Shown here in pieces: positions 21,591 through 62,883 of a stretch of 64,000 bases of DNA. A program made the translations under genes and the position numbers. Position 1 is the stretch's first letter; every line of letters begins with the position of its first letter. Where the stretch lies: NCBI RefSeq assembly GCF_001625215.2, contig NC_030385.2:45781598-45845597 (forward strand), given 5' to 3'. This DNA comes from Daucus carota subsp. sativus. Lineage: Eukaryota; Streptophyta; Magnoliopsida; Apiales; Apiaceae. A model generated the notes under the pieces. It was not told where the DNA came from and did not search any database. It saw nothing but the letters and a program-made list of their open reading frames with translations.

Positions 21591-24351
21591 ATGGCAACGG
21601 GAGGAGGAGGAGGAGGAGCAAGTAGATTGCCGACATGGAGGGAGAGAGAGAACAACAAGAGAAGAGAGAGGCGAAGGAGAGCCATTGCGGCGAAGATATT
21701 CTCCGGACTGAGAATGTATGGCAATTATAATCTCCCCAAGCATTGCGATAACAATGAAGTTCTCAGAGCTCTTTGCAACCAGGCTGGTTGGATTGTTGAG
21801 CCCGATGGCACCACCTATCGCAAGGTACTCAACGTTATTTCTTTCCTTTTAATCCCTGTTTTTCGATTTTTTCTACTATGATACCATGTTAAGTACTTAA
21901 GTTGCAAAGGCTCATGTGCAAATTGCAATAACCATTATCTTATGCGTACTCTATTTTGTTATTGGGTTCGGGTCCTGACATACATATGATCCAACATATT
22001 ATCAACATTTTTTTTGTTTTTGGGATGACATTTAACTAGATTTTTGATGAAAATGTCGGGGACTACAACGGAAAGATCGAGATGTTTTACCATCCAACTG
22101 TTTTTTTCCCGCTGAACATATGCCGCTTATAATTGATTGTTGTGGACATTACCCTTGCTATTTTGCTTCTGTTGTTTTTCTTCCTTTATTGTCACAGTTT
22201 ACTGTGCATTTTAGCAGTTTACTAGTGCCTCTTCTAACATGAGCCTCTAATCTCCAATCTTAGTACATGTACTTAAAAAAAGCCTGGTCACAAAAATAAC
22301 AAGCATGTGTTTGTTAAGATTGAGTTTTACCAAGTCAGGGACTTAGATTATCCTGCCCAGTGCCCACCACCCTGCATTTCTCCACTTCCACTTAAAAGAA
22401 TAAAATTAAAAATGTAATTTCTATACGCAACTCATGAAGATCCTGAAGTGTTAGTGGGGGCAATGTACTTTTCAGCTTTTGTTCTGTAGCTTTACTTGTT
22501 TCCTTTCATGTTCTTGGTGCAGCACCTACTTGCTGAAGCCTTTACTTTGTTATATGCTAACAGAAACTTGTGCAACTCAGCAGCAGTGTTTTTAAAAGCT
22601 CAGTTTCTTTATTTAGCATTGCTTTGCAATTGTTGGTCTCGTGAAGGGCTTGTTTATGGGAAAGTCCCATCATTTTGAGTCATTGGCTCATGGTACAATC
22701 CAATCAATGTGCCACCTTGAATTTATTGGACTTGCTCCACTGTGGTTTTTGGGCTATATTATTGTACTTTTGCTGCTTCAGTGCATTAGTTGTGGCCACC
22801 ATGTCAGAGAAAGTGTGTATCTATCTTTGTGTTATATCATCACAAGGAGGAACTACTTGATTTACCCTCTTCTTGCTTCATGTATACTTTTAACCTGTTC
22901 AGTTCACTGTGCATTTTGGGAACTGGTAGTTAAGTGATTTGCTTAGGTCTAATCAAAACAAATTTGTATGTACTTTATCTTGATTTTGTTTACTGGTAAA
23001 TGGTAATTCACCCAGGTTCCGTATTAGGCAACTCTAAAACAGTTATTGATGTTTTTTTCTTATATATTCCCGTGGAAGCTTGGTTTAGGTTAGCTGATCA
23101 TTCTGAGGACTATGGCTAATTACCTCAGAGACTTGTATAAGTATGCAATTATAAATGACGTGAATGAATGGGGTGCCTAACCATATAGTTCTAGACTTGA
23201 AACAACTGTTCGGTAAATTTATGGAAAATGGGCATCTACAGTGCTAGAGTATGTGTGTATCAGTTTGATTTATTTTTATTTTGCAGTAAACCATGTTATA
23301 TGGACTTTTTGATTCACATTGAGAATCCCCTGCGATTGACACTCCATTTTGTATGCGCTACAGTGCTTGAAAATTATACTGCATAATTTTCTTAATATCA
23401 GGACTTAGGTTCTTGGACATGTATCTATTGCGGAGAATTCCATCTGATTCTGGATGATATGTAGTATTTTCTTAGATGTTTTGGTGCTTTCTATGCTTCT
23501 AATGATATTCCGATTTTGCAGGGATGCAAGCCTGTAGAACATGTGGATGCTATGGGAGGATCTGCACCAGTGAGTCCTTGCTCGTCTTATAACTTAAGTC
23601 CCTGTGCTTCTTACAACCCTAGTCCCATGTCCTCTTCCTTCCCTAGCCCAGCTTCATCCTCTTATGCTGCTAATGCAAATGTAGATGGCAATTCCCTCAT
23701 CCCGTGGCTCCAAAACCTATCATCTTCATCCTCATCCGCCTCTTCCTCCAAGTTTCAGCATCAATATATGCAAACTGGCTCCATCAGTGCTCCGGTCACT
23801 TCTCCTTTGAATTCCCCAGCTCGAACCCCTCGATTTAGAACTGAATCTGGCTGGAATGCACCACATTACTCTTCAGTCCCTTTCTCCACTCCACCAAGCC
23901 CTGGGTATCAGATCTTCCCAAATCCAGATTGGTTCAAAGGCCTCCGAATTCCACAGAGCGGCCCGTGTTCTCCAACGTTCAGCCTTGTGTCTCCAAAACC
24001 ATTTGGCTTCACGGACGAGGCTCAAGCAGGCAACGGTTCTCGTATGTGGACTACTGGACAGAGCGGGAACTGTTCTCCCGCTTTGGCAGCAAGTATGGAC
24101 CAGGATGCCAATGTGCCTATGGATGTATCCCTATCAGATGAATTTGCATTTGGAAACAACACAAAGAAGCAAGTGAAGCCGTGGAAAGGTGAAAGGATCC
24201 ATGAAGGGTTCGTTTCAGATGATCTCGAGCTCACTCTGGGAACCTCACAGACAAGGTACTCATCGACAATGAAATTTAAACTGCATTCACAAACATAAAC
24301 ATTGTTTTGTTTTCTTTTCTGATCAGTTCATTTGCATTATATTGCAGGTAA
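21591..24351 (+). CDS. BEH4: BES1/BZR1 homolog transcription factor (BEH4-like)
   Basis: Brassinosteroid-pathway transcription factor that binds E-box/BRRE sites and is inactivated by GSK3/BIN2 phosphorylation. Exons 21591-21824, 23522-24255 and 24348-24351 give 323 residues; the last exon contributes only one base of Arg and the stop. Residues 10-90 form the atypical bHLH-like DNA-binding domain ([20 protein letters not shown], then [18 protein letters not shown]). A Ser/Pro-rich stretch follows with repeated SPxxS-type sites for BIN2 (residues about 95-150), then [10 protein letters not shown], a PEST-like acidic region, and the C-terminal EAR repression motif LELTL at about 313-317. The family member is most like BEH3/BEH4. 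The last intron and 3' UTR are copied twice more downstream (27.5 kb and 38.6 kb). Confidence 0.93.
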
Positions 24352-25865
24352 GAAGGTGAAGCAATCCGAATACAAGCGGTCTCATTGCCAGTCTCGAACT
24401 ATGTTATCTTGTTCTAAGAACAGAATAGAAGCCTTCTGTATAGTCTGTAGTCATCTTCATTATAAATGTTCTGTCTGGAGTATGAAATTAATTCATGTGT
24501 TCTCACCTATGTCTATCGCCTCGTTCACTTTGTGTTCAGTGAGATATCTTCGACATTATATTCAATATAGAGCTGCAATGATTCGGGTGGTTTTAAAACT
24601 TGTGGTTGATAGCTTAGCATCTATTTCGTTCAAAGTTTTTGTTGACGAGAATACAATACACGAAAATGCAGTTGCATAGAGATATTTTATCGTTGCTACA
24701 TAGTGATTTTGATTCGATGGCCAAACTAAATTTTGGCCAGAAAAGTTGACAGAAGGTGGACCAATTCACTACTGACTTTGCGCCTTTACCATCGAATTTT
24801 GTAAAGGCACTCGCTGTAAACTCTGTTGCCGAGTGAACTAGTGAATCTTTTACTGAAAAAAAAGGAAGCATGCAAACTGATCTGCTGGCCCTGTTTATGA
24901 GACTGACGCAGGAAGATTGAGATGTGTTTATTTACATTATTTCAGTTTGTCTATGTTCATGGCCAGATACGCATCATCTGAAAAAAGGAATCCCAGCATT
25001 AAATTGTGTTACCATGTATGGCTGAAACAACCTTTTCCTTTTATAAACTATTTTTAGCTTCTTTTTGCAAAAGAAAACGCAATCAAGTCCATGTCATTTC
25101 CTAGGTATGCTATACATTAAATTCTGTTGTCATGTTTAGTTGAAACGGATAGACCTATACCTCTACTCTGAACTATTGAAGTGGTAAGTTTTGGCGTATA
25201 ACAACATGTCAATTTATTCTTTTAATCACACTTTTATTTTGTTTTAATATTTATTTAATATTTAATGTATAAAATGAATGTAGTGTGGTGTAAAATTATG
25301 AGATGAGCTAATATTTAATATATTTCATAAAATTTTATTATTTTAGAATATTGTATATAATTAAATGGAATATCCAAAAAAAAACATGCATGCTCATTTG
25401 ATAAATCTGAACAATTAATATATGAATGAATAATATATCTGACTAATCTGAATGAATCAAATATCTGAATTCTGAATGAATAATATTATTTGATATTCTT
25501 TATGAGAAATATCTGAATGACAACTTATTTTAAATAAATATATAATCCAGTAAAAAAGATTAATCACATTTATTGACAATAAAATATCATACGTGTATAA
25601 TATTATATATATGATCTTGTTAAATATTCCTATATCAAAAATTAATAATAGCTTTGATTTTTTACACATAATTTGATGTGGAAAATATATATTTTTACAG
25701 ATTATTTTTAGATTATTCTTTTTTAAATGAAAATATAAATGTAAATTTTACTAAGAATAAATTGAAAAATAACAATAATATTTTAAATTTTTTTTTCTTC
25801 GACTCAAATCAAGTAAAAGAATCAATATATTATTTTTAAGAAGATAAAATTAATTGTTTCAATTA

Positions 25866-27490: not shown

Positions 27491-28480
27491 ATATTGTTCT
27501 CATTGCCAGTCTCATTGCCAGTCTCGAACTATGTTATCTTGTTCTAAGAACAGAATAGAAGCCTTCTGTATAGTCTGTAGTCATCTTCATTATAAATGTT
27601 CTGTCTGGAGTATGAAATTAATTCATGTGTTCTCACCTCCTATGTCTATCGCCTCGTTCACTTTGTGTTCAGTGAGATATCTTCGACATTATATTCAATA
27701 TAGGCTGCAATGATTCGGGTGGTTTTAAAACTTGTGGTTGATAGCTTAGCATCTATTTCGTTCAAAGTTTTTGTTGACGAGAATACAATACACGAAAATG
27801 CAGTTGCATAGAGATATTTTATCGTTGCTACATAGTGATTTTGATTCGATGGCCAAACTAAATTTTGGCCAGAAAAGTTGACAGAAGGTGGACCAATTCA
27901 CTACTGACTTTGCGCCTTTACCACCGAATTTTGTAAAGGCACTCGCTGTAAACTCTGTTGCCGAGTGAACTAGTGAATCTTTTACTGAAAAAAAAGGAAG
28001 CATGCAAACTGATCTGCTGGCCCTGTCTATGAGACTGACGCAGGAAGATTGAGATGTGTTTATATATATTATTTCAGTTTGTCTATGTCCATGTCATGGC
28101 CAGATACGCATAAATGTTGATAAAATGAGCGATGAGTTATGCTCATTGAAAGTTACCAACTATAAGTGAATGCAATCTTTTTTCAAGTGGTCCATTTATC
28201 CAAAGGATTTATGATTTTCCAAAGCGATGAGTTGTGCTCATTGAAAGTTACCAACTATAAGTGAATGCAATCTTTTCTCAAGCGGTCCATTTATCCAAAG
28301 GATTTATAATTTTCCAAAAAAAACTGATCATCTGCTGGCCAGTGAAAAAAAGAATCCGAGCATTAAATTGTGTTACCATGTTTGCCTGAAACAACCTTTT
28401 CTTTTCATAAACTATTTTTACTTTTTTTTTTTTGCAAAAGAAAACGCAATCAAGTCCATATCTTATTTCTCTTCATTCCT
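27490..28480 (+). repeat. Second copy of the BES1/BZR1 3' UTR and downstream flank
   Basis: Closely matches 24380-25080 (same AACTATGTTATCTTGTTCTA start and GGAAGCATGCAAACTGATCT). It contains its own head-to-tail duplication of about 95 bp (28130-28218 and 28224-28318, word GTTACCAACTATAAGTGAAT), which is single in unit B at 43210-43302. Confidence 0.85.
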
Positions 28481-36200: not shown

Positions 36201-37105
36201 CAGGGATGGCAATCGGGTCGGTCGAAACGGGTTTGGCAAAAACCAAATCCAAACCCGATTTTTTTTGCCAAACCCGAACCCGAACCCGAACCCGGAAAAA
36301 CCCGAATCACCAAATCCGAACCCGAACCCATCGGGTTTATTCGGGTTCGGTTCGGGTTCGGGTTTGTGGATTTTTACCAAATTACACCTTGATTTTTACA
36401 AATTCAGGTGAGACATCTGATTCGGGTCAAAGGGCTCGTGGGTCTGACGATGTTGAAATTATTATGATTGAATTAGAGGTCAGATAGGACAATGGATCAT
36501 TCTTCTAAGCATGAAATTGTTGATGAAGTAAGGCCATTGAAAAGCAACACCAGCTCAAAACAACCGGAATGGAGGAATTTAATGATAAGAATTACCGGAG
36601 AGTTGAAAAGGGGTTGCATATTAGAATGAGATGGCTAGTCGTATTTGATGATTTGAAACCACATGTATCCGTGTTGCTAATCTCATTCAAAATCTTGGCA
36701 TATAGTATACTTATTTCGAACCCTACAGGTGAAAATATGTTTAATAATAATAGTTTAGTAATGTTAGACTTTAATGCAATAGTTTGTACTAGTATTAGTA
36801 ATATAATATGTTATATGTTACACAATATTACTTTAAATTACGGGACAATACATGTATATATAAAAATATTATTTTTATATTCCAACGGGTTTCGGTTCGG
36901 GTTCGGGTCGGAACAAAACGGGTTTCGGGTTTTCGGGTCGGGTTCGAAACGGTATGGCATAAACCCGAACCCGACCCGAAAATAGTTCGGGTTTAAAAAT
37001 CAAACCCAAACCCGAACCCAAACCCGAAATATTCGGGTTCGGTAAGACCCAATCGGGTCGGTACGGATCGGGTATCCATCGGTTCGGTACAAATTGCCAT
37101 CCCTA
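36201..37105. mobile_element. hAT-like element rich in CGGGTTCGGG subterminal repeats
   Basis: Ends CAGGGATGGCAAT and ATTGCCATCCCTA; perfect 8-bp target duplication TTTCATAT (36193-36200, 37106-37113). The corresponding position of unit B (49033-49040) is an empty site with one TTTCATAT. Open frames inside are chance frames through CGGGTT repeats and are not genes. Confidence 0.92.
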
Positions 37106-37471
37106 TTTCATATCCTCAGTTCTTAAATTACACACTTCACTACCACACACCCTCTAATAATCCCAACCCAAATTCTCAAATCTTGTTTTCAACCCTCCAT
37201 TTGTAGCTAGTTACACCCACCCACAAACATATAGATACAAGTAGTTCAAGAATTGTGTGATTATGATAAAGGTGGAAGTTATGAGGCTGGAATTTAATTA
37301 GTGAGGCATTATATTGGTATAAGCTGTTCAAGAATTGTGTGATTCTTGATATAGGCGGGAGCTTTGAGCTGGGACTTTAGTGTGAAGGCGTTGTGTTGAT
37401 AATTTAGATTGGTTTAGTTGATTATATGGTGTTTTCTTTAAGTGAGTAGAGCTGAAATTTGCTTCAAGAAA

Positions 37472-37981
37472 ATGTCAGCAGAGAGATCATTTGAGGCCTG
37501 GGAGGAAGTTCAATGCCATGGATTGGATCTTGCGGACCGGCTTACGCAAGGATTTACGGGTTTGATTCAATCTCATATTAGTCCTCCATCGTTTTCTTGG
37601 CCTAATCCTCAACCCCCAAAACTGTTTGATGTTGAATTCCCTAGTTATAATTTTGTGGACAAGGATTTCCGGTTTGCAAGTGATTATCAATCTGGGATCA
37701 ATGGGGTTTTAGCTGTGTTTGATATTGGGAATAAGTTAGGCCAAGCTGGGGCTGATTTCGGGGCCTCATTGAATGGTGTGGTTCAGCAGATTTTTCGGTT
37801 CTTAATTGCCATTTCCATTTAAGCGGAATGATGATGATGTTGCTTTGGGTAAGTTGCGTGCGGATGTCACTAGTCGGAGACAGGATATGGGTGTTAAGAT
37901 GCAAGTTCAGGATGATTTAGGGACCTTGGCTAAGCAATTTCGAGATCTGGGTTTGTTGAAATTGATGGAAATTCAGATGAG
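37472..37981 (+). pseudogene. Truncated, frameshifted copy of gene X exon 1
   Basis: Almost identical to 49399-49908 including about 370 bp of 5' flank. A 4-nt insertion (AATT near 37804) shifts the frame and yields TAA at 37820-37822, about 117 codons from the ATG. Homology stops near 37981, inside exon 1. One visible substitution (Arg to Cys in VQRHGLD). The promoter region is retained, so transcription is possible. Confidence 0.92.
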
Positions 37982-39931
37982 TCCATTTACATTACTTGGA
38001 TGCTCAGCATATCGGTTTTTTTTAATGGTTGGTGTGTCCATACTCGCAAACTTGGATGGTTTCTTAAAAAATAAGCCTATAATTAAATGGAATATCCAAA
38101 AAAAACATGCATAGAATTGAATGAGACTAAAGAATTATGCATTACGCTAAGTGAAGACGATGTTGACACGTTCACTATTTTCTTAATGAATAAGCTGCAA
38201 GAGGCATAGTAATTCCATATTTAGTTAACACACACTTTGGTGGAGAATAACTAGCAATAGCATAGCTACTGCAGTAGTGCTTCCAGACCTTGTTCGCTTC
38301 CAACAATTCAATACTTGCCCTGCAGTTGATTGGGGTCTGGAGTTCGGTTACGTGAATTAACTTTCTTTTTTCCAAAGAAAACACAGAAGTCCACATCTCT
38401 TATTAAAAAGAAGCTAGCTCCATCTCCTGGGTATTAAATTCTGTTAACATGTTTGCCCGAAACAGACACCCCTAGACCTCCACTCTAAATTGAAGTGGTA
38501 AGCTTGGCGTATAACATATACGAAAACATGTCAATTTATTCTTTTAATCACAGCTTTTTTTGGACAGCTCGATGCATAATTGATTCACACTAGCTAGCTG
38601 GTTTCCCTTTGGTACTCATCGACAATGAAATTTTAACTGCATTCACAAACATAAACATTGTTTTCTTTTCTGATCAGTTCATTTGCATTATATTGCAGGT
38701 AAGAAGGTGAAACAATCTGAATACAAGCGGTCTCATTGCCAGTCTCGAACTATGTTATCTTGTTCTAAGAACAGAATAGAAGCCTTCTGTATAGTCTGTA
38801 GTCATCTTCATTATAAATGTTCTGTCTGGAGTATGAAATTAATCCATGTGTTCTCACCTCCTATATCTATCGCCTTGTTCACTATGTGTTCAGTAAGATA
38901 TCTTCGACATTATATTCTATATAGAGCTGCAATGTTTCGGGTGGTTTTAAAACTTGTGGTTGATAGCTTAGCATCTATTTCGTTCAAAGTTTCTGTTGAC
39001 GAGAATACAATACACAAAAATGCAGTTGCATAGAGATATTTTATCGTTGCTACATAGTGATTTTGATTCGATGGCCAAACTAAATTTTGGCCAGAAAAGT
39101 TGACAGAAGGTGGACCAATTCACTACTGACTTTGCGCCTTTACTGTGACGCCCCCGGCCCGGGATGACCTCAGTAACCCGACCCGGGAATGTCATTCTAC
39201 TAAACAAACCAAAATATATTTCCAAAATTTCAAACTTCTCATTACAACATAACTTAAAGTCATATTTAACCTTACATCAAAAGTCTTACATCATACGCTT
39301 CTAAAAGTTCTGAATACAAGCCTAACACATATTAAACGCTTCTTTCGATTACATCATAATACTTCTATTAACTTCTGCTTGCAAATTCAACCAAGTTACT
39401 CTAGGTCACCACATTTTTACCCTTGCCTGAACATCCTTCTCCCGAATTCTTTCCTGTACAGTTAGTACATAAAAAGGAATGAGCTCATAAAGCTCAATAA
39501 GCATATATCGTACAGTTCAACTGAGTTTTATTCACAAAACTTTAATAATCAAATCAATATTTCACACATCAAGATGAATATGAGTATTCAAACACGTTCA
39601 CAAGTTCACACGTTCTACTGTTGGGGATCCCGGCCAGCTAAACAATTGGTTTAGCTTTCCTTCCCGAAAGAAGTATCATACTTTACTTCACAAAGGAAGC
39701 ATCACACACAGAACAAATGTAAGAATACTCATTCCTCATCAGAAAATCATCAACAAAATGTTCACCAAAACATCATCAAATATCACAGTGAAGGGTACAG
39801 TATATACTTACAGTGTACAATGTCCTAGTTAAAATCTCCAACAACTTCGTTCCCTAAAATATTCACACAGTTACTTTATTATTATTAAGTCATGTTTATA
39901 TTAAATCTCCAATTACTACTAATCAAATAAG

Positions 39932-41183
39932 TAGGGGTGATCGCGGTGCGGGCGGTGCGGTTTTTTCCTAAAACCGCAAACCAAACCGCACATGCGGTTT
40001 TACCAAAATCTCAAACCGCAACCGCACCACGAAATTTTAAAACCACATAAACCACACCACGAAAATGCGGTGCGGTGTGGTGCGGTTCACTGCGGTTTCC
40101 ACATGCGATAAAACTAACTAAATATCTCTAAATTTGAACATAAATTTCAAATCTGGAACATTAATAAAACTTAACAGAGGAGTCTTAAACAGCACAGTAG
40201 CACACCGATTAAAGTCTTAAACAGACAGACTGAGATAGTTGAAGTGGAAAGTAATTTCAAATACAAATATTATAAAAAAAAATCAGCTTCAATCTTCAAG
40301 CTCTGTAGAAATCAGCTCCAGCCTCCAAATACTTGATGCATTTATATGCTGAAAAGGACCTGTACAAATAAGGATATAAGATAGAAACAAATAATAAAAT
40401 TAGATCATTTTTTGGATCAGATTCATCTTTCGTAAAATGGTCCCAGACATCACTTACTTTTTTCGAAGATGGCGTTGCTTTCCGTTTTTGTGATGCAGGC
40501 GTCTTCTCAGTGGTTTCATCTTGTGTAGCTTGTGTTGCGTGTGATGAAGAAGTCACCGGAGTATTGACGGGCTCTAAGTTTTGCTCCATCTCCGTCTGAA
40601 ACAAGAAATTATCGAATCAAAATCCAACAATCAAAAGAATCCGAAGTATGAGAGCAAATAATCTACCTTAATTAGCTCAACAAGCTTGATGTACGTGAGA
40701 TTGTGAATCGTTGAATCTGAAGTAGTTATTGCAGATAAGATGTTAGCTATTTGGGATTTAGGGTTTTGTCATTTGTGCGGCTATCGGCTAGAATAAAAGA
40801 GATGAGTATGATTTTAAGTTTTACCTAATAGAACTTTGGGCTTCTGCCTTCTGGGCTACCGCATGCTGCTGGACTGCTAGACTAGGACTAATAATAGTTA
40901 AGTTTTAATGGGCTGAGAGTAATATTAATTATAATATATATATAAATATATATAATTATAAATATAAATATAAATATTATTTTTATTATATATATTAATA
41001 TTGCGGTGCGGTGTGGTTTGAACCGCATTCAAGAAAACTAAAACCGCAACCCGCACCGCACCGCGCGGTTTGTGAAAAATCCAAACCGCAACCGCACCAC
41101 GAAAATTAAAAACCGCGTTTTGTGGTGCGGTTCGGTGCGGTGCGGGCGGTTTACGCGGTTTGGACGGTTTTCTGCTCACCCCT
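39932..41183. mobile_element. hAT element with TGCGGTGCGG subterminal repeats and a transposase remnant
   Basis: Terminal inverted repeats TAGGGGTGA and TCACCCCT(A), flanked by AAATAAG on both sides (39925-39931, 41184-41190; one base ambiguous). Both ends are packed with AACCGCACCGC-type words in both orientations, as in hAT subterminal transposase-binding regions. Carries a BED-type N-terminal coding remnant. Confidence 0.85.
40416..40589 (-). pseudogene. N-terminal remnant of a hAT (BED zinc-finger) transposase
   Basis: From the ATG at 40589, preceded by a plausible acceptor (TTGTTTCAG), the frame encodes a low-complexity Thr/Ser leader, then SQKRKATPSSKKVSDVWDHF, the entry of the BED zinc finger of RICESLEEPER/DAYSLEEPER-like hAT transposases. 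The Cys and His ligands that should follow are missing, and the frame closes at 40296 in unrelated sequence. The catalytic domain is absent. The element therefore depends on a transposase made elsewhere. Confidence 0.7.
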
Positions 41184-41322
41184 AAATAAGAATAATGAAA
41201 TCATAACTAAACTATTAAATTAATAAAATAAAATAAAACTATAAAAATAATAAGTCAGTAGACTTACTTAGATTTGGCAGGCCGTGAGCTTCCTATTTTT
41301 ATAAAGTAAGAAGGGAATGTGT

Positions 41323-41372
41323 TTATATAAGGAAAGATATGACTTTCCTTACATTTCCTCTCGATGTGGTAC
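41323..41372 (-). promoter_or_regulatory. snRNA-type module M1: USE-like motif plus TATA box, 32-nt gap
   Basis: Minus strand: GTACCACATCG (41372-41362), 32 nt, TATATAA (41329-41323). Resembles the plant USE (RTCCCACATCG) except for the second and third bases. Confidence 0.6.
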
Positions 41373-41462
41373 CACATGAAATTGGTATTAAGAAAATTGG
41401 CACCTGGCGTCGGAGGGTGGCGCCAACAACTTTGATTTTATTACCTTAATAGCTAGGCTACT

Positions 41463-41506
41463 GATTATATTCATGAGAATACACTATCATGTTTTCGATG
41501 TGGTAC
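41463..41506 (-). promoter_or_regulatory. snRNA-type module M2, 26-nt gap
   Basis: Minus strand: GTACCACATCG (41506-41496), 26 nt, TATAATC (41469-41463). Confidence 0.45.
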
Positions 41507-41621
41507 AAGGACAAGAAGATAAAGAAACGTCCTCCAAAATTAATAATGCAACCGAGTGCCAAAGGTCTCACTTACAGCTTAACTCAAATTAATTTTATTT
41601 AAAATAAGCTTAGTTCTTACT

Positions 41622-41663
41622 CTATATACACATGTTTTGTTACTACTTTACTCGATGTGGTAC
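41622..41663 (-). promoter_or_regulatory. snRNA-type module M3, 24-nt gap (Pol III-like spacing)
   Basis: Minus strand: GTACCACATCG (41663-41653), 24 nt, TATATAG (41628-41622). The centre-to-centre distance is about three helical turns, as in plant U6-type Pol III genes. Confidence 0.5.
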
Positions 41664-41787
41664 CAAAAGTTCATATAGAAAAAGAGAAATTTTCTTTTGG
41701 CACAAACTAGAACCATACCTTGGGACAAGAATAACTTCAAGTCTTAGCACATGCTCTTACTCACTTGAAAATTAACATCTAAAGCCT

Positions 41788-41832
41788 ACTATAAATGCCT
41801 ATATGTTGTTAGTTGAGAACTCGATGTGGTTT
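41788..41832 (-). promoter_or_regulatory. snRNA-type module M4, 26-nt gap
   Basis: Minus strand: AAACCACATCG (41832-41822), 26 nt, TTTATAGT (41795-41788). Weaker match to both elements. Confidence 0.4.
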
Positions 41833-41861
41833 TATGTTTTCACATCTTAGAATGTGGCAAC

Positions 41862-41911
41862 TTCCCACATTGAAAAGATTTAGGAGCTTGTGCTCCTCCA
41901 ACTCTATATAA
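41862..41911 (+). promoter_or_regulatory. snRNA-type module P1: USE-like motif plus TATA box, 32-nt gap
   Basis: TTCCCACATTG (41862-41872), 32 nt, TATATAA (41905-41911). Confidence 0.6.
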
Positions 41912-41936
41912 CTCATGTTATATGATAGCACTCATT

Positions 41937-41986
41937 GTCCCACATTGAGTAAATATTGGAATCACCATGCTTCCAATTCTATATAA
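41937..41986 (+). promoter_or_regulatory. snRNA-type module P2, 32-nt gap
   Basis: GTCCCACATTG (41937-41947), 32 nt, TATATAA (41980-41986). One mismatch to RTCCCACATCG. Confidence 0.65.
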
Positions 41987-42153
41987 ACTCACCATTGCCC
42001 ACCTTTCTATTCCAGAAAGTTTGCAGCTTTCTCTCGGGTTCCATATACCCTATTTATTCAGTTTTAAAGTTTTAGAAATAAAGAGAAATAATTAAGTTTC
42101 TCATAATCAAGTGAAAAAAATATGTTTTGAAGGTTTGACAAAAACCTCACCAA

Positions 42154-42203
42154 GTCCCACATTGATAAAATATCATAAATGTGAAATCTTTTACTCTATA
42201 TCA
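42154..42203 (+). promoter_or_regulatory. snRNA-type module P3, 32-nt gap
   Basis: GTCCCACATTG (42154-42164), 32 nt, TATATCA (42197-42203). Confidence 0.6.
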
Positions 42204-42273
42204 ATGTTGTGAAGCCAACACTTACAACCCAAAACCCAACTAAGGCAACTTTCTTTACTTTGGACTACCTTTA

Positions 42274-42322
42274 GTCCCACATCGAGGAGGCTATAAGATA
42301 TGCCATCCCTTCCTCTATATAA
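42274..42322 (+). promoter_or_regulatory. snRNA-type module P4: exact USE consensus plus TATA, 31-nt gap
   Basis: GTCCCACATCG (42274-42284) matches the plant USE exactly; 31 nt later TATATAA (42316-42322). The TATA box itself is the target of the hAT MITE at 42324: TATATAAA is the duplicated 8 bp. Confidence 0.7.
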
Positions 42323-42323
42323 A

Positions 42324-42687
42324 CAGCGGCGGATCCAGGGTCCGAGCCAAGTGGGGTCCAATTTTTTTTAAACATGATAGGTAGCAAAATTAATATCATA
42401 GAATAAGTCTGATGTTATAATATTTACATATGTGAGCCAAGTGGGGTCGTTGCGTTGCTCTTCAGTCTTGTCTTCATCACTCTGCACCTGTGAGCACAAA
42501 TGACTTGCTATTATTTTGTGTTTACTTTTCTTGGCCCGGGCTTGAATTTTTTGGCCCCATATCATCTTTATTGGCCCCATTTTATATTACAGTTCTGATT
42601 TTTTATACATAAAAAAGTAGGTTTTTTTTTTATAAAAATTCAAGTGGGGTCAGGGGCCCCCACCTGACCCCTGTGTATCCGCCACTG
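42324..42687. mobile_element. hAT MITE inserted in the TATA box of module P4
   Basis: Ends CAGCGGCGGATCCAGGG and the inverted complement of CAGTGGCGGATACACAGGG; perfect 8-bp target duplication TATATAAA (42316-42323 and 42688-42695). Same GGCGGATC family as 44601 and 63622. Confidence 0.92.
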
Positions 42688-42768
42688 TATATAAATCAAG
42701 GTTATGAAGCCAATACTTGAAAATATACCAACTACAACTTGTTGCTTGGTTTTTGGACATTACTATTT

Positions 42769-42817
42769 GTCCCACATCGAGGAGATTATAAAAACATTTC
42801 CTCTCAAGTCTTTATAA
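42769..42817 (+). promoter_or_regulatory. snRNA-type module P5: exact USE consensus plus TATA, 31-nt gap
   Basis: GTCCCACATCG (42769-42779), 31 nt, TTTATAA (42811-42817). Confidence 0.65.
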
Positions 42818-43003
42818 TGCTAGTAGACTTAGCTTAAAGAAAACTAACCCCCGTATGTAATTGAATAATTATGGGAGCCTTGACCAAGGCAAAACAGAAT
42901 TTCACTAGATTAAATATATGATAATAATACTTACTTACTAAAATACATATAAATATAAATTATGTATCATCCAAATAAAATGAATTCGGGATATTACATT
43001 TAC

Positions 43004-48713: not shown

Positions 48714-49398
48714 GGTCCGACCAGGTAAAGCTATGGTCGTATATCAAATTATCAACTAGTACATAAGTAGGTCCCATTAGGTAAGGGTATGGTCGTATGG
48801 ATATGAGATTATCAACCTGATGGGCTGGGCTGGGTAGTTGGATAAACCCATAATACCCAAGCAAGAGATGGCCTACCCATTTCATAGTCACCTTCTTTGA
48901 TTTAACAAATATCTTCTCAACCATACCTACTGACCATAAAAAAAATTCAAAAAAATAAATAAAAATCCTTAGCTCTTCCCCCAAATCCAATTTCTAACCC
49001 TAATTCCCAAATTTTATTCCCCCAAATCTTGATTTCATATCCTCAGTTCTTGAATTACATACTTCACTACCACACACCCCTCTAATAATCACAACCCAAA
49101 TTCTCAAATCTTGTTTTCAGCCCTCCATTTGTAGCTAATTACACCCACCCACAAACATATAGATACAAGTAGTTCAAGAATTGTGTGATTATGATAAAGG
49201 TGGAAGCTATGAGGCTGGGATTTAATTACTGAGGCATTATATTGGTATAAACTGTTCAAGAATTGTGTGATTTTGATATAGGCGGGAGCTTTGAGCTGGG
49301 ACTTTAGTGTTAAGGCGTTGTGTTGATAATTTAGATTGGTTTAGTTGATTATATGGTGTTTTCTTTAAGTGAATAGAGCTGAAATTTGCTTCAAGAAA

Positions 49399-52300
49399 AT
49401 GTCAGCAGAGAGATCATTTGAGGCCTGGGAGGAAGTTCAACGCCATGGATTGGATCTTGCGGACCGGCTTACGCAAGGATTTACGGGTTTGATTCAATCT
49501 CATATTAGTCCTCCATCGTTTTCTTGGCCTAATCCTCAACCCCCAAAACTGTTTGATGTTGAATTCCCTAGTTATAATTTTGTGGACAAGGATTTCCGGT
49601 TTGCAAGTGATTATCAATCTGGGATCAATGGGGTTTTAGCTGTGTTTGATATTGGGAATAAGTTAGGCCAAGCTGGGGCTGATTTCGGGGCCTCATTGAA
49701 TGGTGTGGTTCAGCAGATTTTTCGGTTCTTGCCATTTCCATTCAAGCGGAATGATGATGATGTTGCTTTGGGTAAGTTGCGTGCGGATGTCACTAGTCGG
49801 AGACAGGATATGGGTGTTAAGATGCAAGTTCAGGATGATTTAGGGACCTTGGCTAAGCAATTTCGAGATCTTGGGTTTGTTGAAATTGATGGAAATTCTG
49901 ATGAGTCTGTGGATGAGAATGGGGATAGATATGTTATAAAGTCTAGAAGATTTGGAATTCCAACCGAGGTATATAGCTTGTGACTCCATTTAATTTTTGT
50001 CATTTGAGCATGTCAAATAATATCAGGTGGTTTAGCTTTCTGTGTGTATATGTACAATGAGCTAATAAGTTTAGATAAAACTTTCAGAGGATAAACTTTC
50101 ATGCAAGTATTTGCAACTTAATAGAATGGTGTATGAACCTTTTAGCATAAAACAACCACTTCTAAGTAGGGTACTAGTATGAAGAGTTGATGGTATGAAG
50201 CTGCTTGACCAAGGAAGGTAATGATGTATGCAGACTCAATAGATAGTTTCCATTTCCATATATGCTCTCAGCTTGTGAGAAAGATAATGTCGTGATTGGT
50301 AAACAATCAAAGTAGGAGGGTGGATTTGAAAAATAAAGAACGAGTGAGTGATTATTTTTTTTATGATGGGATTTGGGAAGAATTGGGTGTTGTGATGGAT
50401 TTTTTTTTTTTTTTTGGGGGGGGGGGGGGGGGGTTTGACTCATCTCGTTTGGGTGGTTAGGAATGGAATGGTCTAAGGAGGGAGGAATGAGAGTTTTGAA
50501 CATTTACTGATATTATTGTCATTTTATTCCTTTCCTTCCAATTCATTCATCCCAACCAAACACAACATAAGAGTATATCTGTCCTAGCTGATATGTTTAA
50601 ATTTTATTGTTGCTTGTCCAGTATGAACTTCAAGAATTTTTCACTCTGGCTGTTTGTGTATGAGAATGTTTGTTCCATCAATTTGCCATTGAAAATTGTT
50701 TAAAACTTTGCCAAAATCTTTAATTTCTTAAAAAAAGAATTATAATGCCAAGTATCTGAATGCAGGGAACCATAAGTGTTACATCAACATATGACAGTAG
50801 AAAAGAAGACCTGGAAAGTTCTTTGACTGCGAGAGGAGATCTGTGGAGGGTAGAAGCATCACAAGGCAATTCCAGTTCAGGAAATGGAGATTCCTCTCTT
50901 TTCCTTCTTCAGCTTGGACCAGTGCTTTTTGTTCGTGATTCTACTCTTCTTTTGCCACTTCATTTGTCGAAACAACATATGCTGTGGTATGGATATGATA
51001 GCAAGGTATAATTGGCTTTCTGGTTTACCCTATTTGAGCTACCTGCACATATGTGATTTTTGTCAAATATAGATGTTGGACTGTCATAGTGAAATCTGAC
51101 GGAAGATATGAAATCTATACTATACTATAAAAAGCCAACATAGGTATAATTTGTAGTCGTACAAAATTTTGGTTTGGTACTCTCCTCTAAAACTAAAAGT
51201 CTACAAGTAGATATCTATTAAACAGTTTCATATACTAAAAACACTTCTTATGTATATTAATATCTTTTTAAATATAATTTATAATTAGTTAAAAAAAAGG
51301 TGAAACTACTGTTAATAACATATATTAATATTAAAAATTACTTATAGATAAACGTATAACTAATTATAAATATACAATTTTGAATATCTTTTGTCTAAAA
51401 TACATATAAATAATTAAAGACGCTACTTTTTAATTATAACGTATTCTACTCGAAATTTAACACTTACGTATTCTATTTCATTACAAACACGAGCCATTAC
51501 GTAACATATGAAGATATATGAAATATGAAAAATTTGATTTAAATTGAATAATAAACTGTCACATATTAATATAGAAAAATATTTATAGATAGATAATAAA
51601 TTGTGAAAGCTAAATTTTCGTTAGAAGATATAACGAGTTGGTTAATATAATTTAACTAAAATCCAATTCATTAATACTAAAATACTAATAAAATGGTGTT
51701 AAGAATTAAATTATAATTAATAAATTACGAATCATATACCCGCCCGTGCTTTGCACGGGGTTAAAGGCTAGTATACATAAAATTGGAAGTTAGCAAGAAT
51801 TCTTTCTTTTTCCAGCAATCCTCAATTTGTAAGTGTTGTGGGAAAATGGTCTAGATGCCTCTGAAAATTTTGTCCTACACTTTATATAGATATTCTAATT
51901 TGTTATATTACATTATATTCAACAGAGCGCACTTATGTCTTTCTCTAATTTAGATATAGTTCAAGTAGACAATGCATTAAAGTAATTTAGACAAAGGGTA
52001 TTCTGAAACAATTTCTTTTACACACACATCACCTAAGGATATGCCTTTAGAACTCTGACTACTATCTTAAAAAATAGAATTATATCAGTCAGTCAATCCC
52101 TTCCATATAAATTTATTGAAAACCATAATAATATCGTGCCTGTTTGGGCACCACTTTTAAAAAAAAATAAGCACTTACATTTTTTTTAGAAAATGAGTTT
52201 TTTAATAATTTTTTCGGATATAAATGGTAAAGAGCTGTTTCATATTCATTATTTGACAAAAAAATAAGGGCTGATTTCAGAAAAAAGTAGATTTTGATGT

Positions 52301-55781: not shown

Positions 55782-57318
55782 TTACCAGGATATCTTCTTC
55801 GGTTTCATATTCTGTTTATGGCTCTTAATAACCAGTGATTTTTCCTTTCTCTGGTGAAGGAGAATCAAAGGTCTACAAAATAATAAAATTGCAGCCAGCT
55901 CCATCAGGAATGTCATTATGCTGATCCACACAAAGATTGTTCTTCTCCAGCACCAGATAATCTTCTTGACCTGTGGCAGCTCAGACTCGAGAGAGACCGA
56001 TGCAGAGTATATTTCTGGTATTCCTGCGCCGTGCTGCTGTTCGGCTCTCTGTTCAAGGATCACGCGTAAACAGGCAGTTGGTTCGATCCCTTCTGTGAAA
56101 TCGGAGAATTTAACCTCCAGAGTCTGCGATTCTGATTGAAACCCTGCAACCAGAGGAATGGTCTTGAATATGGTCTCAGCAAACCGGACAGACTGGCTTT
56201 TGAATTTCAGCATACTTGGGTAGCTTGAACTTGCTGTTACTTTACCAGTAGCAGATAGAAACTCCGCTTTAACCTGCAGATAGAAACCAAGACCCGTTGA
56301 ATGTAGACGATGCAGATGGTCTGGTGTAAGAATCAAGATAACATACCTGAAAGATACCAAGTTTCCTGTTGTATTCTGATTCAGGAAGGCTCAAAGAGAC
56401 GGTGAGCTGGAGTTTGTGATTGTAGGGAATTGCACGCTTGTCGCCCTTTCCCACTGCCGTGCTTTCCTTAGAGATCATACCAGATGATTGGGGAACTCCA
56501 TTAGAGGACATGAGTGGCATGAAAGCAACAGGACTAGCTCTGGTGTAGTCGAAGTTTAAGGCTTGTGTTGTCTGGATAGGCTCTTCAACTACGCGTCTCA
56601 TTGTCAGACCGCCTATGATGAAACTCGAAGCCAGAAGTCCAACCAACAAGAAGCAAACATAGATCATCCAGAAAATCGCCCAGGTGAACCTTACTGCCAG
56701 ATTCACTACAGCTTTTTGTGCCTTGATCTTCTTGTACATGAAAGATGTGAGATTCATATAGAATCCGACCCAGACACCAACGAGCATTTTCACTGCATAG
56801 TTTCTGATCCGTGCCACGGTTTGAAATGGAAACATCATTAACATAACAGACAAGTATGAGAGTCGGATGGGAAACATGAAGAATCCCAGGAAAAGATTGA
56901 TCTGAAAGCCGATCATTCTGACAATGATCACGGCCAAGAAGATCAAAGTGTTCAAAGGGAATTCTTGATATCCGCCTGAAGGACTATTCACCACCTTAGA
57001 GACATCGACATAATCATCAATGTTACAGTCAGGTATACCATTTGCTTGCTTTGAACTGAACTGAAGCATAGCCTTTTCGGATTCTAGAGATACCTTCTTG
57101 GCATTCTTATGAGAGGAATATTTGTCGTAAACTTTGCAAGGCTCAGAATCAAGCTGGAACAGTGGTCTACTAGAATTTTGAGACATTAACACTTTGTCAG
57201 CTCCATGGAGTAGCCACGGTTTCACCAGACCCGCGAAGAATCTCAAGTTACTTCCTCTACCAAAACCCGTAAATTCATCAGTATCAGAAGAATTTTCATG
57301 AAGGTTTGAGTCAGCCAT
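55782..57318 (-). CDS. Seipin (plant long N-terminus type, SEIPIN2/3-like)
   Basis: ER membrane protein that organises lipid-droplet formation. Exon 1 57318-56347 and exon 2 56273-55782, a 73-bp intron, 487 residues. Residues 1-120 form the variable N-terminal extension that distinguishes plant SEIPIN2/3 from the shorter SEIPIN1. A long hydrophobic block (122-165) and a helix at about 211-237 (FTWAIFWMIYVCFLLVGLLA) precede the lumenal domain (RRVVEEPIQTTQALNFDYT, later LQLTVSLSLPESEYNRKLGI, FQVKAEFLSATGK), the conserved seipin core. The C-terminal helix is at about 437-462. Both exons are intact. The gene is convergent with gene X (about 510 bp between stops). The left end of the Mutator-like element lies about 470 bp upstream of the ATG. 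Confidence 0.93.
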
Positions 57319-57394
57319 TGATGTTTTGGTGAAATGTAAGATAGTGAAAGCACAGAGGGGCTCTGGCCAAGGGTGGGAACAGCAGTCTGCGACA

Positions 57395-57401
57395 TTTTAT
57401 A
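57395..57401 (-). promoter_or_regulatory. TATA box of the seipin gene
   Basis: TATAAAA on the minus strand, 77 nt upstream of the ATG at 57318, which leaves room for a short 5' UTR. Confidence 0.6.
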
Positions 57402-59335: not shown

Positions 59336-61137
59336 CTATTTATAGGCGAATGGATTATTGTTTAGCTGAATTATGTCAACCACCTGCGTGTTCCCGCCCT
59401 TATTGCACCCTTTTACCATGTACCTTTGCGTCTTTACGGAGAACAAACCGGTTCCTCTATTAAATGTCTCGACCCGGTGTGTGTTAGCTTTGGCTGCAAT
59501 CTTCTCCAACTTATTTCTCGTCCTTAGACAAAGTTCATGACCCTCCCCAATGCCCTCAAGCACTGCGTTCCTCTCCTTATTGACCGTCCTAACAGTTTTA
59601 TAAAACATGAATTCAATCATTGCGGTCACAGGTAGGTGCCGAGCCACGCGCACGTTACCATTAAAGCTCTCCGTGATGTTTGTGGTAGCTTGGCCGAAAC
59701 GAGCGTGGCCTGTGTCATGACAAATAGTCCAGAGGGCTGGACTTATCCCTAGCAACCACCTCAAGCCTTGAGGCGAAAGCTCTCCAATCTTCTTCATGTA
59801 CGCATCATATTTCCTAATCTGTGGCGTATTGCCGGCTAGCCACATGTACATTTTAAGGTCCTTTCCCGGGAATGCCTTGGAGAAGTTGCTCCTAACATGA
59901 TGGAGACAGAATCTGTGATAGCCCATCGGCGGGGTAAAACCACTCGCTTCGTCATTCATTGCAGCAAGGATCCCCGTCGCACGGTCAGATATAATACAAA
60001 CCCCCAATCTATCTCGGCATACATGTCTACGTAAAAGACGTAGAAACCAAGACCAATTTTCAGTTGTTTCCTCATCAACAAGGGCGAAGCATATGGGATA
60101 TTGGTGGTTATTAGAGTCGACTCCCACCGCGACCAGCAATTTCCCATTATACTTTCCCTTAAGAAATGTACCATCAATGGAAATAACTGGCCGTGCATAC
60201 TGCCAACCATCAATCATTGCTTTTAGGCACCAAAATGCACGAACAAATGTCGATGTACCCCTCTCTTTATGATGTGGAACAACCTCAACCACAACTATAC
60301 TTCCGACATTTGTACTGGCCATGACATTAAGAAACCGAGGGAGCTCGTTGTAGGTTGTCTTCCAGCTTCCATAAACGCTTTCCATGGCGGCCATCTTCCC
60401 CCTCCATGCTTTCAAGTAACTAACCAAATGGTGGTACTCATCATTGACCATTGTGATGATGTTGCTTACCTTCAATTGAGGGGTCTGGGAGATCTGTTGA
60501 AACAAAATATATTAACATTAACGATGAATAATAAACGATAATATTTAGACATATAATGATATCCAAGGTTGTAGGACTTACGTAGGGAGCAACCACATAG
60601 CCAATCATTTTTGCTGAAATTTTGCGGTGGTCCTGCGTGGGTCTATCCAGTAGGCATGTGTGAATCTCTGAAATTATGTTGAAAACTCCCACCGTAGTTT
60701 TCAACATAATTTGAAACTTGGCCACCTGCAGCAGTTTGTCCGGTTTGTCCATAGTTCCCCCCATACTCGCCTCCATAGTGTTGGCTGGGTTGAGCAATAC
60801 TCTCGGCCTCGATAAACAATGATACGTCTCCACCCAAGTGAAATCTCTCGGGGATACTTAACATCCTACGAACATCGTCGTCCGATTTAACAGACTTCAC
60901 AAAGAACCCCGAAACGAGGTTACTAACCCCGATTCGAGGATATTTCACACTAAGCTTGACATCCCAATGATGCCTACTTATATGCATCAACCCGAACACC
61001 ATATCTCGTAGTTCTTCAAGTGAGCTGCTCAATTTCACATACATCATTTCTTTCGGATCTAAGGTGTAGAGAACATCGTTATCTTGTTTTATGATTTCAC
61101 CTCCCCAGAAGAAATTAACGTTTACGTATCCGTCCAT
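59336..61137 (-). CDS. MULE transposase (MUDRA-like), probably frameshifted in exon 1 and lacking SWIM finger
   Basis: Proposed exons 61137-60582 and 60493-59336 with good splice sites (CCCTAC|GTAAGT; TTTCAACAG|ATC). Exon 1 starts at MDGYVNVNFFWGG, a MULE N-terminal domain, and ends DHRKISAKMIGYVVAPY. Between 60640 and 60660 the frame must change (one frame reads HMPTG-stop, the other CLLDRPTQDHRK), so a 1-nt indel or an unrecognised intron lies there. Exon 2 holds the catalytic domain: Asp in ISIDGTFLKGKY (60173-60175), Asp in IISDRATG (59984-59986), a CLHH motif, and Glu in NITESFNG (59669-59671). The spacings (63 and 105 residues) fit the MULE DDE fold. The frame ends NNPFAYK without the usual C-terminal SWIM zinc finger. 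A start at 61347 is possible but gives an unlikely N-terminus. Confidence 0.8.
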
Positions 61138-61228
61138 CTTTGTTTTTGAAGTGTGTGTTTTTTTATGATTTTCGTGTTCGGCTAGGATTTTCTCACAAGG
61201 CAGATTGATAATATGAGGGAGAGTTTGT

Positions 61229-61985
61229 AGTGTTTGTTTTTCTGATTTGGTTTTGGTGCATAATGAAGAACACAAAATGCTGCTTATAAGGACACAATTC
61301 AAAAGAAAACACTGTGCTTGAACAGTGGATGCATTTGCTTTCTTCACTTAATGGATTTGCAGAATCGTCCTCTCACCAAAAAAGTGATTCTTTCAGCAGT
61401 AAAAACATGCATGAATAGTGGATGCATTTGATTTTTCCAAATAATGGATTTGCAGAATCGTCCTCTCACAAAAGAAGTCATCTTTCAGCAGTGAAAACAG
61501 GCTTGAATATTTGATGCAGATTGCTTTCTCTACTTAATGGATTTGCAGAAAAACGTCCTCTCAGCAAAAAAGTGAATATTTGAGCAGTAACAACAGGCTG
61601 GCTTATTGAATTATTGAATGATTTCAATGAAGTTGGCAGCTTTGTCCAGTGTTAAATCAATGTTTTGTAATAAAAAGCTAAAAAACCTACTGCCTTAGAT
61701 GTGACCATACAATCAAAATTATTTGCACACTCCTCAAAAAATAATTCTCTGCATCACATTTTAATATTAGGTAAATAAAACTTTAAATATTAGATAAATA
61801 ATTAATAAACTATAAATATTAGGTAAATAAAAAAATATTAGGTAAAAATTAGATAAAGGAAAAAATATTTCCGAATTAAATTAAATTAAAAAATATAATA
61901 TTACAATCTATAATATTATATTATATCATTACATAATATAATAATATAAAATATAATATCACAAATAATGTATCACTATATAATA
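61229..61985. repeat. Direct duplication in the MULE, copy 1 (transposase 5' region)
   Basis: Begins GTAGTGTTTGTTTTTCTGAT; repeated nearly exactly at 62139-62883. It contains the transposase leader and three head-to-tail units of about 92 bp (61317-61600; word GGATTTGCAGAATCGTCCTC). Confidence 0.9.
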
Positions 61986-62138
61986 TAAAATATTTTTATA
62001 TTATATCATTATATAAATTATATTATAAAATATTATAATATAAATAATATGGGTCGCCCTTTGAAATAATATTCTAAATGGTGTGAAAAAATTTAATTTA
62101 TAAATAATAAATTAAAATTCTATGTATCATGCCAATGT

Positions 62139-62883
62139 AGTGTTTGTTTTTCTGATTTGGTTTTGGTGCATAATGAAGAACACAAAATGCTGCTTATAAG
62201 GACACAATTCAAAAGAAAACACTGTGCTTGAACAGTGGATGCATTTGCTTTCTTCACTTAATGGATTTGCAGAATCGTCCTCTCACCAAAAAAGTCATTC
62301 TTTCAGCATTAAAAACATGCATAAATAGTGGATGCATTTGATTTTTCCAAATAATGGATTTGCAGAATCGTCCTCTCACAAAAGAAGTCATCTTTCAGCA
62401 GTGAAAACAGGCTTGAATATTTGATGCAGATTGTTTTCTCTACTTAATGGATTTGCAGAAAAACGTCCTCTCAGCAAAAAAGTGAATATTTGAGCAGTAA
62501 CAACAGGCTGGCTTATTGAATTATTGAATGATTTCAATGAAGTTGGCAGCTTTGTCCAGTGTTAAATCAATGTTTTGTAATAAAAAGCTAAAAAACCTAC
62601 TGCCTTAGATGTGACCATACAATCAAAATTATTTGCACACTCCTCAAAAAATAATTCTCTGCATCACATTTTAATATTAGGTAAATAAAACTTTAAATAT
62701 TAGATAAATAATTAATAAACTATAAATATTAGGTAAATAAAAAAACATTAGGTAAAAATTAGATAAAGGAAAAAATATTTCCGAATTAAATTAAATTAAA
62801 AAATATAATATTACAATCTATAATATTATATTATATCATTACATAATATAATAATATAAAATATAATATCACAAATAATGTAT
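62139..62883. repeat. Direct duplication in the MULE, copy 2
   Basis: Same order and same three 92-bp sub-repeats as copy 1. Offset about 910 bp. The intervening 62000-62138 contains the inward part of the right inverted repeat (GGGTCGCCCTTTGAAA). Confidence 0.9.

Follow-up and report, generated by a model that had tools for sequence, protein, structure and literature searches.

The solo LTR and its nested insertions

Plant genes (DUF641, BES1_N) are found in the window, by which we mean the whole 64,000-nucleotide stretch of DNA that was analyzed. The nine promoter-like modules described here lie in a separate feature of the window, which was delimited by comparing the window with itself. 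Copies of another repeat, at 24255–24974 and 27509–28223, correspond to 38611–39143 joined to 42999 onward with the intervening stretch absent, giving two empty sites (24785–24789 and 27917–27921). Because of these empty sites, the 5-bp duplication TTTAC and the LTR-type ends, the intervening stretch is identified as a solo LTR in minus orientation, and modules on the plus strand are therefore antisense and those on the minus strand sense. Its ends agree with the LTR ends of a full-length relative (L009/L010, described below). The LTR-like character that the initial annotation gave to the element is thus borne out by the empty sites, the TSD and the shared ends; the modules do lie inside the LTR, which is larger than the 41323–42817 originally assigned to it and extends over 39144–42998. 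A DNA transposon with a 10-bp TSD AGTAGACTTA (at 41257 and 42822, by eye) was considered and rejected, as the LTR ends and the two empty sites set other borders.

The LTR has itself been invaded twice, by elements that are classed as hAT-like by their ends and duplications only. The smaller is flanked by an 8-bp duplication TATATAAA at 42316–42323 and 42688–42695, and its insertion therefore hit the TATA box of module A4; the larger has a 6–7 bp duplication (A)AATAAG. The window copy is a solo relic of a Ty3/gypsy family, bearing two insertions.

Table 1. Positions of the LTR, its nested insertions, the USE-TATA modules and two predicted transcript bodies in the window.
Feature	Positions	Strand	Description
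Solo LTR	39144..42998	-	TGTAATATCCCG start at 42998, CA end at 39144; 3855 bp including two nested insertions
TSD TTTAC, low side	39139..39143	.	
TSD TTTAC, high side	42999..43003	.	
Second nested hAT-like element	39932..41184	.	Ends TAGGGGTGA / TCACCCCTA; class by ends and duplication only
Nested hAT-like miniature element	42324..42687	.	Ends CAGCGGCGGAT / CAGTGGCGGAT; class by ends and duplication only
Sense S1	41323..41372	-	GTACCACATCG, gap 32, TATATAA; may be the promoter for the element's own RNA
Sense S2	41465..41506	-	GTACCACATCG, gap 26, TATAA; spacing U6-like
Sense S3	41623..41663	-	GTACCACATCG, gap 24, TATATA
Sense S4	41789..41832	-	AAACCACATCG, no TATA[A/T], TATAG at 18 and 28; head-to-head with A1
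Antisense A1	41862..41911	+	TTCCCACATTG, gap 32, TATATAA
Antisense A2	41937..41986	+	GTCCCACATTG, gap 32, TATATAA
Antisense A3	42154..42201	+	GTCCCACATTG, gap 32, TATAT
Antisense A4	42274..42323	+	GTCCCACATCG, gap 31, TATATAAA; TATA doubles as target duplication of the nested insertion
Antisense A5	42769..42817	+	GTCCCACATCG, gap 33, TATAA
Predicted S2 body	41393..41440	-	48 nt, predicted +1 through TTTT; hypothetical Pol III-type transcript
Predicted S3 body	41536..41599	-	64 nt through TTTT; hypothetical

The nine USE-TATA modules

Each module begins with a motif close to the USE consensus RTCCCACATCG, and its gap is defined as the distance from the USE 11-mer to TATA[A/T]. All nine motifs of the initial annotation, five plus and four minus, were found where it had placed them, and the two plus-strand motifs that it matched to the exact consensus are A4 and A5. 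Its TATA distances hold to within 2 nt for eight motifs, with A5 at 33 rather than 31; the ninth, the fourth minus-strand motif (41832), had been given a TATA at 26, but has only TATAG, at 18 and 28. An earlier TATA at gap 7 is also present in two of the plus-strand modules. The motifs are more frequent in the window than expected by chance: ACCACATCG occurs four times (0.17 expected; no shuffle of 100 reaches 4), and TCCCACATYG with at most one mismatch occurs 12 times (5.8 expected; again no shuffle of 100 reaches 12). The suggestion that promoter units had been amplified is supported by tandem units, approximately 74% alike over approximately 147 nt, in the LTR of a relative, and shorter tandem units are also present in the window. 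Inverted repeats between USE and TATA or around GTCCC were weak (mean z −0.65 and −1.08 respectively, 35 modules) and were set aside.

The arrays form two arms that face outward around a centre near 41847. In some DNA transposons, transposase-binding repeats are arrayed facing outward in two arms, and the layout would fit motifs that serve as subterminal repeats, or as integration or packaging signals, rather than as promoters. We regard this as very unlikely: the element is an LTR with a TSD and a full-length Ty3/gypsy relative, and such a role leaves unexplained both the conserved TATA at a fixed distance and the match to host snRNA genes described below.

Membership of the family

The full-length relative has two 2400-bp LTRs (L009 and L010), which are 100% identical, in the same genome. 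L009 has a 1520-aa frame in which Pfam identifies gag, zinc knuckles, protease, RT, RNase H and integrase domains in the Ty3/gypsy order; the integrase core (rve) scores 31.9 bits, just under its cut-off of 32.6, and a chromodomain match (Chromo) scores 23.1 bits, under its cut-off of 25.1. The 5' LTR is adjoined by TGGTATCAGAGC, which we take to be the PBS, and a purine tract is found at the 3' LTR.

Matches to GTCCCACATYG-N25-45-TATATAA provided 40 loci (L009–L048), where L010 is the second LTR of L009. Sorting by eye according to module layout put 21 of these loci and the window in family 1 and 12 loci in family 2, leaving seven (L010, L029, L031, L039, L042, L044 and L047) outside both. 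In a check on unmasked sequence, the window matches 18 loci, namely 17 of the 21 other family 1 loci plus L010, and none of the family 2 loci; the family 1 loci without a direct match to the window are L018, L021, L026 and L033. Single linkage of unmasked sequence joins both families and the window, but the families only via L036 (linked to four family 1 loci) and the pair L032–L033. When the motifs were masked, with a 250-nt limit, most of families 1 and 2 formed one group of 33, and the window grouped with L019 alone.

Modules occur on both strands in 22 of 22 family 1 loci, a count that is weak proof alone because layout helped to assign the family; they also do so in all 17 loci with a direct sequence match to the window. 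The initial annotation had described the array in a single element: it is present there, and is a family trait not confined to the window copy. In the 22 loci, TATA[A/T] follows at 31–34 for 84 of the 91 antisense motifs, although the loci were chosen by their USE-TATA pattern and the antisense modules are therefore partly ascertained. The sense motifs (n = 52) comprise 17 with a gap of 31–34, 29 with a gap of 24–28, and six with neither. A sense module of the longer class is present in 17 of the 22 loci (missing or unreadable in five) and the shorter class in 20 (missing or unreadable in two), and where both occur the longer is the outermost. The family order is therefore an outermost sense module with a gap of approximately 32, inner sense modules at 24–28, and then two to five antisense modules at 31–34.

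Conservation of motif and spacing

The module regions of 19 of the 22 family 1 loci (leaving out L018, L021 and L033) were aligned pairwise, and 147 of 171 pairs passed a filter of 0.50–0.85 identity and coverage above 0.6. In these pairs USE identity is 0.891 for antisense modules, 0.876 for sense modules with a gap of approximately 26 and 0.969 for sense modules with a gap of approximately 32, and TATA identity is 0.883, 0.932 and 0.955 respectively, making the outermost sense modules (S1 type) the most conserved class. The corresponding spacers are only 0.642, 0.650 and 0.648 identical, which is similar to the 30-nt flanks (0.58–0.69) and the remaining sequence (0.629), and TATA[A/T] outside modules is 0.678 identical. 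The alignment of LTR copies, which the initial annotation had proposed, thus finds USE and TATA conserved far above the sequence between them.

The length of the spacer is also kept. Alignment gaps occupy 0.8–1.6% of spacer cells, compared to 2–11% in the flanks and 4–6% in control spans that passed the same filter (identity 0.64–0.65). When homologous modules are compared, 308 of 436 antisense pairings and 207 of 273 sense pairings show an identical gap, counted for the best-agreeing TATA pair at 20–40; one or both homologues have lost TATA[A/T] in 44 antisense and 36 sense pairings. Because the LTR copies are related, their pairs are not independent tests, but this common history affects motif, spacer and control alike. 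Since the spacer drifts and motif and distance are maintained, we conclude from these alignments that the USE motif and the USE-TATA spacing of family 1 are under selection. Random spacing or a wholesale loss of motifs in other copies, which would have spoken against the original proposal, were not what we observed.

Spacing in the genome as a whole

Scans covered the 441-Mb, 11-contig genome. The pattern GTCCCACATYG-N25-45-TATATAA has 143 matches, and the reversed pattern has none; the gap is 31–33 in 90 of the 100 matches listed out of the 143. Many of the matches are paired approximately 7.1–7.5 kb apart, like the two LTRs of one element. In unrelated viral contigs, used as a spacing control only, the pattern TCCCACATYG-N24-36-TATATAA gave 61 chance matches with gaps that are spread (13 at 31–33, 12 at 30). 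A search of phage records found no match.

To reduce the modules of all loci to a non-redundant set, those at least 80% alike were removed, which left 80 of 209. TATA[A/T] lies at 31–33 in 50 of these (shuffle mean 2.1, maximum 8) and at 24–26 in 14 (shuffle mean 2.1, maximum 7). The result is similar for the 52 non-redundant modules outside the search pattern, with 28 at 31–33 and 10 at 24–26 (shuffle means 1.3, maxima 7 and 6). The distance to TATA is therefore bimodal, at approximately 32 for antisense and outermost sense modules versus 24–28 for inner sense modules. The genome scan for motif, spacer and TATA suggested at the outset accordingly gives a spacing far above chance, with an empty reversed control.

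Comparison with host U6 and U2 genes

In plant snRNA genes the USE is one helical turn nearer to the TATA box in those transcribed by Pol III than in those transcribed by Pol II (PMC9845283), and the plant USE is bound by SNAPc (PMC6765143). We calibrated the two gap classes on the host's own genes. There are 27 matches to U6, 22 of them over the cut-off. Of 17 U6 genes read, 12 have a USE with TATA at a gap of 25–28 (three of these also have a TATA at 16 or 20), two have a USE without TATA, and three have no USE by the pattern; the USE starts 62–66 nt upstream of the expected RNA start. There are 44 matches to U2, 42 of them over the cut-off and many partial. Among the best 13 of the 44, three have GTACCACATCG with a gap of 35 (near-identical copies) and one has TAACCACATCG with a gap of 36; the other nine do not fit the USE pattern, but in five of them ATACCACCACG can be made out by eye, followed by TATA at approximately 34.

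The inner sense gap of 26 falls within the host U6 range. A gap of 32 in the LTR falls 3 nt short of the 35 of U2, or 1 nt short if the inner TATAA is counted, which the sense TATATAA at gap 32 holds at 34. The USE variant GTACCACATCGAG of the sense modules is common to three of the 13 host U2 genes read. The earlier proposal that the two gap classes correspond to Pol II and Pol III snRNA spacing therefore agrees with the host genes, matching U6 directly and, within 1–3 nt, those U2 genes in which a USE could be read.

Our preferred explanation, to which we give a probability of roughly 0.74, is that the feature is the promoter-dense U3 of a Ty3/gypsy solo LTR, in which the modules would be snRNA-type core promoters composed of USE and TATA at a fixed distance. 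Promoters of the snRNA type, recognized by SNAPc, are the best reading of the modules.

Modules in other LTRs

Modules of this kind are not limited to family 1. In L013/L049 a purine-rich tract precedes the LTR, which starts with TGTAATATCC. The domains found there (gag, protease, RT, RNase H and integrase zinc-binding) identify a second Ty3/gypsy family. The L013 LTR has six USE motifs, all sense, of which five have a TATA (the first at 40, 32, 32, 24 and 32) and one has none. None of the 12 loci of family 2 has modules on both strands, the arrays being one-stranded, and of their 63 motifs 37 have a gap of 31–34, three a gap of 24–28, and 23 neither. The gap-26 module also occurs in five loci outside the Ty3/gypsy families: L031, L039, L042, L044 and L047, the last of which does not align with the other four. 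L031, L039 and L042 are copia-like, judging solely from a start that resembles TGTTAGAAAATGG and follows a purine tract, and their gap-26 module is downstream of this start.

The presence of motif and TATA in copia-like LTRs and in a second Ty3/gypsy family is how a general LTR component would behave, and would suit an ordinary Pol II LTR core promoter in which TCCCACATYG is the binding site of some host protein distinct from SNAPc, its likeness to snRNA promoters being convergent or coincidental. Such a promoter would also need no known RNA body downstream, and none is seen. We nevertheless think this improbable, since two spacing classes close to those of host U6 and U2, together with a USE variant shared with U2, exceed what an unrelated factor would predict.

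Possible transcripts of the modules

The initial annotation noted that no snRNA body follows the modules, and Rfam agrees, with no match over its cut-offs; a known snRNA body was therefore rejected. More generally, no known RNA was found after the modules at the Rfam gathering score, the only two matches being far below it (E 0.059 and 0.5), and no tRNA was found. If bodies are predicted through TTTT for the 29 sense units with gaps of 24–26, they are 33–135 nt long in 28 and 181 nt long in one. A clearly structured RNA body was rejected, with z from −2.6 to 1.0 where computed.

Signals for the end of a transcript were sought in the gap-24–26 sense units for which the next USE is within 170 nt (22 units, or 17 after near-copies were removed). 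TTTT is found in 17 of 17, and its presence is near chance, as shuffles have it in 14.3 (maximum 17). The first TTTT is at a mean relative position of 0.73, versus 0.46 in shuffles (maximum 0.71 of 500). It is 21–24 nt from the next USE in 13 of the 17 units, and this distance is fixed relative to the USE and not to body length.

For Pol II snRNA-type transcripts we considered the 3' box, which has the consensus CA(N)3-10AGTNNAA (PMC5079582). A motif like it follows the antisense modules in 18 of 46 units, compared to a shuffle mean of 7.3 and a maximum of 16 in 300 shuffles, and three on the other strand. The letter order of the 3' box ranks first of 20, with 15 of 45 units against 11 for the next two. 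As transcript-end signals, the late TTTT and the 3'-box excess are suggestive only.

Transcription of the inner sense modules by Pol III is plausible. We lean slightly toward their also being Pol II promoters, with the gap of 26 carrying no polymerase meaning in LTRs, and this is compatible with our preferred explanation. In L031, L039 and L042 the gap of 26 follows an LTR-like start, which is where a Pol II promoter is expected; the predicted bodies have no clear structure; and TTTT is both positioned relative to the next USE and present in most shuffles. In favour of Pol III, the gap of 26 is retained in different inner sense modules, whereas the outer one stays at 32; this gap equals that of host U6; and in none of 500 shuffles is the first TTTT so late.

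Discussion

Returning to the explanation that we prefer, SNAPc and TBP would be expected to read the USE and TATA of the LTR modules. Because its USE variant, spacing class and TATA context are common to some host U2 genes, the outermost sense module is a candidate Pol II promoter, and would drive the element's own RNA; since it lies approximately 900 nt from the 3' end of the LTR in L009, it is not certain to be the start of the genomic RNA. The antisense modules would start short or antisense transcripts against the orientation of the element, and Pol III may read the inner sense modules, whose spacing is that of U6. Since relatives keep the motif and its internal spacing but vary freely in the DNA between, these elements probably rely on the host machinery that transcribes small RNAs.

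A stronger reading treats the LTR as a cluster of snRNA-type genes that is mobile, in which a U2-like Pol II promoter for the element's RNA, U6-like Pol III units and antisense snRNA-type Pol II units occur together. The Pol III units would then make short sense RNAs (approximately 30–135 nt) from U3, and SNAPc would feed both polymerases within one LTR, which may help the element to escape or exploit silencing. We advance this only tentatively, and think it rather unlikely.

The modules share with plant U2 and U6 promoters the USE, the TATA box, the two spacing classes, and the variant GTACCACATCGAG found in three of the 13 U2 genes read. They differ in being inside an LTR, arrayed, on both strands and without a known snRNA body. 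Likewise the element has the LTR ends, 5-bp TSD and gag-pol domains of Ty3/gypsy elements (chromovirus-like, with the chromodomain match below cut-off), but an LTR that bears arrays of snRNA-type promoter modules. Small-RNA-gene promoter sequences are also found in the LTRs of Cassandra, Helenus and Ajax, described as 'TRIMp3', which are short and non-autonomous with internal 5S or tRNA promoters (PMC10886601); the present family is of autonomous type, with external USE-TATA promoters. It is not of the Cassandra type, as Rfam gives nothing over its cut-offs, tRNA is absent, and L009 has a 1520-aa gag-pol frame. The trypanosomatid Pr77 is a retrotransposon promoter complexed with TBP and SNAP50; it is an internal 77-nt promoter of non-LTR elements, and the abstract mentions no USE-TATA array (PMC8190864). 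Trans-species miRNA loci of Cuscuta carry a USE (PMC10226582), and so resemble our modules in having it outside canonical snRNA genes, but are miRNA loci and not LTRs.

Among the top matches of an open-literature search, judged by title and abstract opening, we found no plant LTR retrotransposon with a USE. Single TCCCACATYGG motifs near a TATA are common in plant LTRs, which makes the single motif less new; the ordered, two-stranded array with two gaps is unaffected by this. Foamy viruses and bovine leukaemia virus have Pol III miRNA units beside a Pol II promoter, but are animal viruses with another promoter type.

If SNAPc does read these LTRs, then their promoters are built from the host's snRNA promoter code, and the change of spacing that separates Pol II from Pol III is part of it. 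The modules, which vary freely in their spacers but keep their gaps, are a natural series on which the spacing rule can be tested directly. Mobile USE-TATA modules, at the 143 places that match the strict pattern, would also yield false positives in genome scans for snRNA-type genes, and new small-RNA genes would be able to arise from them.

Modules in other loci

USE-like motifs were also identified in a second Ty3/gypsy family from the same genome, where each locus fetched carries between two and eight; in L013 and L049, two loci of this family, every motif lies in the sense orientation. A module with a gap of 26 nt between the USE 11-mer and TATA is present in five further loci (L031, L039, L042, L044 and L047), of which L047 gave no alignment with the other four. 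The LTRs of L031, L039 and L042 appear copia-like when judged by eye.

Locations of features in the window and in related loci
Feature	Location
Second Ty3/gypsy family	L013, L049, L012, L020, L022, L027, L032, L036, L037, L038, L041, L043, L045
GGGAC...GTCCC dyads, window	upstream of 42274, 42769
GGGAC...GTCCC dyads, L009 (full-length relative)	upstream of 3662, 3791
hAT-like miniature element	window 42324–42687
748-bp copies	window 61226–61973, 62136–62883
~880-bp direct repeat	window 37105–37983, 49032–49907
Domain-bearing frames (DUF641/GIL1, BES1_N, Seipin, MULE transposase)	window 5263–6630, 23465–24295, 56272–57396, 59339–60511

Surroundings of the modules

The GGGAC...GTCCC dyads lie directly upstream of the USE and overlap it; both arms carry matching changes in several modules, the signal being weak across the whole module set. 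The miniature element is bordered by an 8-bp target duplication, TATATAAA, which copies the TATA box of antisense module A4, so that a box stands on either side of the element.

The solo LTR is flanked, one copy per side, by the direct repeat (97.6% identity, 12 kb apart). The two 748-bp copies are 99.3% identical, lie 910 bp apart and both contain 93-bp tandem repeats.

Host snRNA genes

Four U6 genes with a repeat spacing of ~5.5 kb occur in the host genome at C5:12227302–12243956 and form a tandem snRNA cluster; three of them have a weaker 120-nt match to the U2 model ~1.8 kb upstream.
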